Both the position numbers and the translations under genes were made by a program. 64,000 nt of DNA, taken from Halorubrum trapanicum. Its GTDB lineage: Archaea > Halobacteriota > Halobacteria > Halobacteriales > Haloferacaceae. The stretch spans positions 310,001-374,000 of the forward strand of contig NZ_AP017569.1 in the NCBI RefSeq assembly GCF_002355655.1, in the 5' to 3' direction. This document shows, one piece after another, positions 49,128 to 51,292 of this stretch. The stretch's first letter is position 1, and each line of letters starts with the position of its first letter. The notes beneath the pieces were generated by a model. The model had not been told where the DNA came from and ran no database searches. It saw only the letters and a program-made list of their open reading frames with translations.

Positions 49128-50408
49128 ATGAGCGCTCTCGACAGCGACGAGTACCGCGCGTTCCGCCGCGACCTCCACCGCCACCCCGAGCCCGCGTGGC
49201 GCGAGTTCTACACCACCGCCCGCATCGTCGAGGCCCTCCGCGAGCGCGACCTGACGGAGCTCCACGTCGGGCCCGACGCGCTGGCGGCCGACGAGCGCCT
49301 GAACGTCCCGGACGACGAGGAACTGGCGGAGTGGGAGGAGCGGGCCCGCGAGGCGGGCGCCGACCCCGAGATTCTCGACGAGCTCTCCGGCGGCTACACC
49401 GGTTGCGTCGCGGTCGTCGAGCGCGGCGACGGCCCCGTGGTCGGCCTGCGCGTCGACATCGACGGCCTCCCGATCACGGAGTCGGAGTCGGGCGACCACG
49501 TCCCGGTCGGGGAGGGGTTCCGCTCCGAACACGAGGGGTTCATGCACGCCTGCGGTCACGACGCCCACGCGACGATGGGGCTCGGCGCGCTCGACGCCGT
49601 CCTCGACTCCGACTTCTCGGGCACGCTGAAGGTGTTCTTCCAGCCGGGCGAAGAGCAGATCGTCGGCGGGAAGCCGATGGCCGAGTCGGGCCACCTCGAC
49701 GACGTCGACTACCTGTACGCGGTCCACGTCGGCTTAGATCACCCCTCCGGCGAGGTCGTCTGCGGCATCGAGGGGTTCCTCGCGGTGCGGCACTTCCTCG
49801 CCGAGTTCACGGGGGAACCCGCGCACGCCGGCGCGCGCCCCGAGCAGGGCCGGAACACGGTTCAGGCGATGGCGGCCGCGATCCAGAACCTCTACGCCAT
49901 CCCGCGGCACGCGGACGGCCCGACGCGGGTGAACGCCGGGCTCGTCGGCGGCGGCACCGCGACGAACATCATCCCCGAGGAGTCGTACATCGAGGGCGAG
50001 GTGCGCGGGCAGACGACTGACCTCGCCGAGTACATGTCCGACCACGCCGACCGGGTCCTCGACTCGGCCGCGGAGATGCACGACTGCGAGGTCGAGGTAT
50101 CGACGCTCGGCGAGGCGCCCAGCGCGACGAGCGACGACGCGCTCGCCGAACTCGTCGGCGAGTCCGCGAGCGACGTCGCCGGCGTCACGAACATCGTCGA
50201 CAGCGACGAGCTCGGCGGCTCCGAGGACGCGACGTACCTGATGAACTACGTCCAGGAGCAGGGCGGGCTCGCCTGCTACCTCGGCGTCGGCACCGACCAC
50301 CCCGGCGGCCACCACACGAGCGACTTCGACGTCGTCGAGGACGACATCGCGATCGGTATCGACGTGATCGCCGGCGCGATCCGGCGGGTCGCCGAGACGC
50401 GGCCATAG
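49128..50408 (+). CDS. M20-family amidohydrolase/peptidase
   Basis: This 426-residue zinc amidohydrolase shows the M20 metal and catalytic motifs: VGLRVDIDGLPITES, FMHACGHDAHATMGLGALDA, FFQPGEEQIVGGKPMAESG, and GGHHTSDFDVVEDDI at the C-terminus. The insert dimerisation domain (about 215-325) includes EPAHAGARPEQGRNTVQAMAA. Members split N-acyl amino acids, indole-acetyl amides or aminobenzoyl-glutamate. Amide hydrolysis in the cytoplasm is likely; the exact substrate is unknown. The last gene before the structured repeat element, it ends 26 bases before the element's left TATTTAAAAA. Confidence 0.92.
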   Translation: MSALDSDEYRAFRRDLHRHPEPAWREFYTTARIVEALRERDLTELHVGPDALAADERLNVPDDEELAEWEERAREAGADPEILDELSGGYTGCVAVVERGDGPVVGLRVDIDGLPITESESGDHVPVGEGFRSEHEGFMHACGHDAHATMGLGALDAVLDSDFSGTLKVFFQPGEEQIVGGKPMAESGHLDDVDYLYAVHVGLDHPSGEVVCGIEGFLAVRHFLAEFTGEPAHAGARPEQGRNTVQAMAAAIQNLYAIPRHADGPTRVNAGLVGGGTATNIIPEESYIEGEVRGQTTDLAEYMSDHADRVLDSAAEMHDCEVEVSTLGEAPSATSDDALAELVGESASDVAGVTNIVDSDELGGSEDATYLMNYVQEQGGLACYLGVGTDHPGGHHTSDFDVVEDDIAIGIDVIAGAIRRVAETRP

Positions 50409-50480
50409 GGGTCCGGAGCGCTTTTCTGACCAGTATTTAAAAACCCCTTCGACGACCTTTATAAATGAATGCGGTGGCGC

Positions 50481-50514
50481 GTGCCGACGAGCGCCCGTAG
50501 GGCGCGAGTCGCAC
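50481..50514 (+). other. Hairpin 1 of the repeat element, with tandem G-A mismatch
   Basis: GCGCCC (50491-50496) pairs with GGGCGC (50500-50505) around loop GTA. GTGC...GAC before it pairs with GTC-GCAC after it, leaving one bulged C and a GA opposite GA, the tandem sheared G-A arrangement found in many structured RNAs. Confidence 0.45.
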
Positions 50515-50524
50515 ACGCGAGGGA

Positions 50525-50556
50525 GTCGGTCGCCGAGCGAAGCGACGGCGACCGAC
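50525..50556 (+). other. Hairpin 2 of the repeat element
   Basis: GTCGGTCGCCG (50525-50535) and CGGCGACCGAC (50546-50556) are exact reverse complements with a ten-base loop, AGCGAAGCGA. Confidence 0.6.
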
Positions 50557-50600
50557 GAGGTTGGGGAGGTGTGAGGCTGCGGTGCTGTGCGGGGCGGGAC

Positions 50601-50712
50601 CCGAAGGGGCAGCCGTGAGGCGGGCGCAGGCGACGTAAGGACCGCAGGAGCGAACGAAGTGAGCGACGAGGACCGCAGCGAGCGTGCGCCCGCCTCACGG
50701 CTGGGGCTTCGG
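50601..50712 (+). other. Large hairpin 3 of the repeat element
   Basis: A perfect 19-base stem (50610-50628 with 50685-50703) is extended by an internal GGG/GGG loop and a further six pairs, CCGAAG (50601-50606) with CTTCGG (50707-50712). The 56-base loop contains AGGACCGCAG twice (50638-50647, 50669-50678). Confidence 0.7.
50692..50711 (+). repeat. 20-base direct repeat, copy A
   Basis: Begins GCCTCACGG and ends GGGCTTCG. It is identical to copy B at 50761-50780, 69 bases away, and forms the 3' side of the large hairpin. An AT-rich TTATAAATA follows 30 bases later. Confidence 0.85.
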
Positions 50713-50760
50713 TGGTGTCGGTGTTGGTGTCGCACGGTCACTTATAAATAAAACCGTACA

Positions 50761-50780
50761 GCCTCACGGCTGGGGCTTCG
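50761..50780 (+). repeat. 20-base direct repeat, copy B
   Basis: Identical to copy A. Here there is no matching left arm, and a TATTTAAAAA tract follows 24 bases later. Confidence 0.85.
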
Positions 50781-50851
50781 ATGAACGTCACCCCCGCAGT
50801 CGCCTATTTAAAAAGAGCCGACCACGAGTCTGCCTCTCGGATCTTCGCAAC

Positions 50852-51292
50852 TCAGAACGTCAGGTGCGAACTCGACGCCGGCCCGTCGTCGTCGCCCTCG
50901 TCGTCGGGTAACCCCTCGTAGAGGTACGTGAGGTCGTCGTCGGTGAGGAACACCGCGCCGTCGCGCACCTCGACGTCGATCGAGCGGAGCGTCGTGCCCG
51001 CGGCCTCGCCGTTGTCGCAGGAGCCCTCACAGGAATCGAACGCCGAGCCGTGCTTCGGGCAGACGACGGAGCCGCCCCGCGTCACGGCGCCAACCCCCTC
51101 CCGGTGGAGTCGCTGCTCCTCGTGGGTACAGCGGTTGATCCACGCGCGGACGGGCTGCTCCTCGCTACCCTCGGGCTCGTCCGCGCACGGCACGAGAAAC
51201 ACCTCGCGGTCTTCGTCGCCCTCGCGGGCGGTGAACGCCCACGATCCCTCCTCGCGCACCGTCTCGACGGTAGTGAGTCGGTAGCCGCTCAC
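50852..51292 (-). CDS. Rieske-type [2Fe-2S] protein
   Basis: This 146-residue soluble protein carries C-x-H near RCTHEEQRLH and C-x2-H in VVCPKHGSAFDSCEG, the two halves of a Rieske cluster site. It begins at GTG 51292 (SGYRLTTVETVREEG) and ends with an acidic tail. No membrane anchor is visible, so this is a ferredoxin-like Rieske rather than a bc-complex subunit. Between the two ligand pairs lies GVGAVTRGGSV instead of the usual longer spacer. It starts five bases before the stop of the geranylgeranyl reductase gene, so the two are likely co-transcribed; an electron-transfer role for that enzyme is inferred. Confidence 0.92.
   Translation of the reverse strand: MSGYRLTTVETVREEGSWAFTAREGDEDREVFLVPCADEPEGSEEQPVRAWINRCTHEEQRLHREGVGAVTRGGSVVCPKHGSAFDSCEGSCDNGEAAGTTLRSIDVEVRDGAVFLTDDDLTYLYEGLPDDEGDDDGPASSSHLTF

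Follow-up and report, generated by a model that had tools for sequence, protein, structure and literature searches.

The gap between two convergent genes in the window, the whole 64-kb stretch of DNA analysed here, contains a copy of a structured repeat family that extends across the haloarchaea; a search of the window found this one copy. The compensatory helix covariation looked for in a structured non-coding RNA is present, and this covariation of the family fold is decisive. Our favoured interpretation, to which we give about an even chance, is that the family is an old, haloarchaea-wide, REP-like extragenic repeat, inherited mostly vertically, whose folded + strand is bound by a putative trans-acting factor. 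A host RNA gene family ranks below this reading, and a cis-acting 3'-end element lower still. No description of the family was found in the open literature, literal sequence words included and subscription journals largely outside the scope, and in Rfam 15 nothing in the window passed the gathering threshold, and four loci showed not even a weak match over the element.

The element's neighbours are an M20-type peptidase/amidohydrolase-like gene (49128-50408, +) on one side and a Rieske-type gene (50852-51292, -) on the other, both named by eye from their sequences, in the convergent setting that the original prediction described. That prediction placed the element at 50434-50814. The element is real; its conserved core is narrower (50472-50719), with a family-typical 3' tail reaching about 50783, and the two TATTTAAAAA tracts (50434-50443 and 50805-50814) are outside it. 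On the + strand, positions 50477-50711 form a three-stem fold. Stem P1 (50477-50518) consists of two covarying helices separated by a tandem G.A (50489-50490/50506-50507), and P2 (50525-50556) is a hypervariable hairpin closed by GTC/GAC. A conserved purine-rich linker (50557-50601; GAGGYTGGGGAGG.GTGAGG ... GGGYGGGAC) precedes P3 (50602-50711), the class-wide core of which reads CRAAG-GGG-CAG...CTG-GGG-CTTYG and which carries a GGG/GGG loop (50607-50609/50704-50706) and three tandem G.A motifs (50632-50633/50680-50681, 50648-50649/50665-50666 and 50652-50653/50661-50662). Within the long hairpin arms delimited by a repeat search (50601-50631/50682-50712), the perfect 19-bp stem CAGCCGTGAGGCGGGCGCA (50610-50628/50685-50703) is extended by this symmetric loop to CGAAG/CTTCG. 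The exact 20-nt direct repeat GCCTCACGGCTGGGGCTTCG occupies 50692-50711 and 50761-50780, its second occurrence lying within a repetition of the P3 3' arm in the tail (50761-50783, +). A TATA-like TTTATAAAT box (50458-50466) stands directly 5' of the element and a CTTATAAAT box (50741-50749) in the 3' tail.

Direct reading and the repeat search recovered everything that had been reported from the letters: three hairpins, the 19-base stem with its GGG/GGG loop, a tandem G-A mismatch, the 20-base repeat and TATTTAAAAA twice. The 19-bp stem and the P1 mismatch are two rungs of a longer ladder of covarying helices and G.A motifs. The arrangement had also been judged too ordered for a spacer, which is borne out by the family evidence and by the folding energy of the + strand as RNA (-191.9 kcal/mol, z = -5.8 versus dinucleotide shuffles); the - strand of the region likewise folds well.

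Covariation was scored for a structure of 62 pairs in an alignment of 47 copies (A1). The compensatory changes that the original prediction proposed to look for occur on both sides in 37 of the 62 pairs, double-change cells number 301 (shuffles give 77), and the proportion of paired cells is 96.6%, versus 26-40% when the pairing is slid. Most of the top covarying column pairs are Watson-Crick partners in P1, P2 and P3. In P1 (columns 14-69), 6 of 14 pairs show two-sided changes, 97.6% of cells are paired and the G.A cells are kept in 47/47 and 46/47 copies; 5 of 8 pairs covary in P2 (helix 3), and P3 (helices 5-9) covaries as well. The four tandem G.A motifs (P1 has one and P3 three) occur in 44-47 of the 47 copies and the GGG/GGG loop in all 47: these motifs are essentially invariant, while the surrounding stems are rewritten. 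Invariant or near-invariant columns also make up the linker, which is retained in other genera. A class-wide alignment (A3), which leans towards the structure since it was fitted to the covariance model, gives two-sided changes in 54 of 61 pairs and 593 double-change cells versus 187 in shuffles. The conservation of the G.A and GGG motifs and the covariation strongly support a structured single strand, as the earlier suggestion of a structured RNA had it. Because G.U exceeds A.C (35:15 here, 50:12 in the class-wide set) and in 107/107 copies of the source genome the + strand folds better than the - strand, we take the + strand to be the one that folds; this evidence fits RNA and single-stranded DNA alike. 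A coding gene was also considered and rejected on the distribution of element lengths modulo 3 (43/35/29) and the covarying stems. Open frames often run through the core, which GC-rich DNA with few stop codons would produce in any case.

A covariance-model search of haloarchaeal genomes, as had been proposed, found related copies in 109 of 145 genomes of the class (46 of 58 genera), leaving 36 without a match; 89 of 119 genomes of the family matched, and the element is present in all 39 sampled genomes of the genus. None of the findings that the original prediction named as fatal to it, namely missing covariation, missing relatives or a coding copy, came true. In a phylum sample of 197 genomes, 26 matched, all inside the same order, and no match was obtained outside that order. 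Carriers of a 15-mer core include Haloarcula, Natrinema, Haladaptatus, Halorussus, Halobellus and Natronococcus, and a search of 69 haloarchaeal loci gave 68 model matches. The same 15-mer in 45 viral contigs and 11 non-haloarchaeal records was dismissed as chance, with no model match. Distant members often consist of P3 alone, and other genera also show head-to-head inverted pairs of P3, in which 37-49 nt separate the core motifs; no such pair was seen among 107 copies examined in the source genome. The spacing of these pairs is fairly constant in loci L260, L277, L282, L305, L324 and L326 (Haloarcula, Natronococcus and others).

Copy number across genomes ranges from a handful to more than 150. 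On the main contig of the source genome (2,835,595 bases) the model, whose E-values are rough and whose copy counts are lower bounds, finds at least 150 matches, nearly all full length; among the matches listed, the weakest scores 96 bits and all sit on this contig. A DNA search of the same genome returned 40 scored full or long matches, and an exact 16-mer core of the P3 foot has 144 hits there, counting both orientations, and 32-168 in seven relatives, with 0 for a reversed control. The two small contigs hold no full-length copy in 240 kb, where about 12 would be expected by length; their sole convincing match is a fragment at 29 bits. Regular spacing along the chromosome is not supported (gap CV 0.88 versus 0.99 +/- 0.07 at random, not significant).

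Individual sites are gained or lost between species. Between the M20 and Rieske genes, at least nine species carry the element and two have a clean empty site, with gaps of 44 and 97 bp. At three loci (L070, L074, L075), several hundred extra bases, possibly further small genes, lie between the element and the Rieske gene. Sites upstream and downstream of the SRP54 gene are each occupied in about a dozen species by copies that point at the gene, and are empty in others. Orthologous copies are 58-73% identical and paralogous ones 67% on average and 89% at most; orthologues are no closer than paralogues, and the source genome has no recent duplicates (identity at most 89%). It contains 71 distinct P2 modules among 103 copies, one of them identical in 13 dispersed copies. 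From these recurring identical hairpins and the equal distance of orthologues and paralogues, we infer that hairpin modules are exchanged between copies. Two subfamilies, A (CAAAG/CTTTG) and B (CGAAG/CTTCG), differ in one base pair of the P3 foot: the source genome has 80 A and 17 B copies (97 typed), and among the matches listed B accounts for nearly all in G016 and A for nearly all in G019. The P3-foot base pair is near-fixed per genome and species-dependent (G-C in the former, A-U in the latter), which points to concerted evolution or subfamily replacement. Some copies carry multi-hairpin inserts within P3 (L064, 1187-1510; L075, 309-537 and surroundings), which look as if palindromes invade the element.

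Could these copies instead be genes for a large, ornate host RNA, maintained by selection for a chromosome-level or RNA-protein function and inherited along with the chromosome? We regard this as possible, though less probable than a resident repeat. The many unpaired and core positions conserved class-wide, the confinement to the main contig, the excess of G.U over A.C, the stable sites and the lack of viral and near lack of plasmid spread would all fit such genes. Against them stand the wide variation in copy number, the 36 class genomes lacking a match, the turnover of sites, and the head-to-head pairs, whose 37-49 nt between core motifs leave scant room for two promoters. The 5' box is wrongly spaced as well: 66 of 92 copies of the source genome have a TATA-like box in the 60 nt upstream (about 1.4 expected), with a peak 16-18 nt before the GGTGGCG anchor, a position that seems too close for an ordinary archaeal promoter driving a + RNA that keeps all of P1, and the box was seen only in the genus and not in the other genera inspected. 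More tentative still is the idea that an ornate RNA family ancestral to haloarchaea, with up to 150 or more chromosomal copies, is bound by a conserved protein and acts chromosome- or transcriptome-wide.

A cis-acting mRNA 3'-end, terminator or insulator working on neighbouring genes appears unlikely. According to a simple composition-based gene caller, whose calls are approximate, 34 copies of the source genome lie in convergent gaps, 13 in divergent and 54 in tandem ones; the convergent excess and the very stable hairpins speak for a 3'-end role. In tandem gaps, however, the element runs with and against the genes equally often (27:27), some relatives lack it at the corresponding gene pair, and a promoter (sigma-type) and terminator scan gave a single terminator-like site, on the - strand, and none on the + strand. 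The complex invariant core would also be needless for a terminator. The transcription-end device offered in the original prediction is accordingly disfavoured. The 3' tail has at least one CTTATAAAT-type box within 300 nt downstream in 98/107 copies and at least one extra P3 arm in 61/107. These tail arms match their own element's P3 arm beyond chance (subfamily base in 56/63 versus 37.6 shuffled), which fits either local duplication or a competing pairing. Among close pairs of copies (<3 kb apart), 10 of 13 point inward (P = 0.0001 versus equal chances). This bias is limited to such distances, around one or two ordinary genes (for example L169, L172, which contains the SRP54 gene, and L174); the enclosed genes include SRP54 and cysteinyl-tRNA synthetase-like, MsrA-like and thioredoxin-like genes. 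Composite transposons were rejected as an explanation of the 10 inward pairs, which enclose ordinary genes with no transposase recognised by eye.

The suggestion of a mobile element holds in part: copy number, subfamilies and the occupied and empty orthologous sites support it, while a mobilising enzyme and target duplications are lacking. The element has neither the terminal inverted repeats nor the target duplications of a MITE, the longest words shared by its flanks averaging 8.7 (direct) and 8.7 (inverted) versus 8.6 and 8.8 for mismatched flanks. Movement of a PATE- or REP-like element as single-stranded DNA, with an IS200/IS605 (Y1) transposase acting in trans, is improbable. The mismatched folded single strand without target duplications recalls PATEs (PMC3119063), and the head-to-head pairs recall REPINs. 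Against this, a Y1 transposase (PF01797), found in 32 of 39 genomes of the genus, is absent from the other 7 carriers, including G016 with 72 exact core matches. The sole Y1 match of the source genome (683859-684209 of the main contig, L421) adjoins a TnpB-like open frame, the palindrome 5' of it is unrelated to the element, and the similarity downstream belongs to another family member; copies of the element lie about 2 and 3 kb downstream. A non-autonomous SINE-like retroposon copied through RNA, which the general layout of 5' box, structured core and tandem-repeat 3' tail would suit, is the least probable reading and is largely refuted by the missing target duplications and by the absence of an RVT_1 reverse transcriptase from all 39 genomes of the genus, RVT_1 being found in control genomes.

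A resident repeat with a recognised strand is favoured because target duplications and reverse transcriptase are missing and Y1 is lacking in 7 of the 39 carriers. What would matter in such a repeat is the folded + strand, with its ladder of short covarying helices, tandem G.A separators and fixed GGG/GGG loop, which a putative trans-acting factor may recognise as RNA or single-stranded DNA. Copies would spread through rare duplicative insertion, and exchange between them would reshuffle the hairpins. Counted against the resident repeat are the small replicons without full copies, unlike most insertion elements, the lack of terminal inverted repeats, target duplications and a partner enzyme, and the lack of recent duplicates. 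If it is right, a structured family for which no description was found is spread over most haloarchaeal genera, and 150 copies of about 250 nt would make up about 1.3% of the chromosome. With hundreds of copies per genus, an invariant G.A ladder and GGG/GGG loop, the family is a very strong comparative data set in the search for a new partner that binds RNA or ssDNA, and the long persistence of high-copy structured repeats without an obvious transposase becomes testable in tractable archaea.

Large ornate bacterial non-coding RNAs of the OLE, GOLLD and HEARO types have many conserved unpaired nucleotides and hypervariable stems. The element is similarly large, with conserved unpaired nucleotides and hypervariable stems, and differs from them in its more than 100 copies per genome, the lack of a noticed associated protein gene and its absence from Rfam 15. 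The PATEs of Haloquadratum, folded single strands with mismatches and no target duplications (PMC3119063), are likewise haloarchaeal, non-coding and present in many copies without terminal inverted repeats. However, they have near-terminal palindromes related to IS605 (PMC3119063), a relation not found for the element when the palindrome at the source genome's only Y1 gene was compared, and the element's whole body makes up a single conserved three-stem fold that covaries across the class. Another close likeness is to the bacterial REP/BIME/REPIN systems with their RAYT enzymes (REPINs, PMC3116915), which share high copy number, extragenic location, a mismatched folded single strand and inverted pairs; REPs are described as exceeding 100 copies per genome (PMC2817692). 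The inverted pairs, a REPIN-like trait, occur in other genera only. In contrast to REP palindromes of 20-40 nt, the unit of the element is about 110-260 nt, with four tandem G.A motifs, no obligatory Y1 enzyme and no GTAG or CGTC tag among its invariant A1 columns. The element works like REP/REPIN-type resident repeats, yet it is not one of them.
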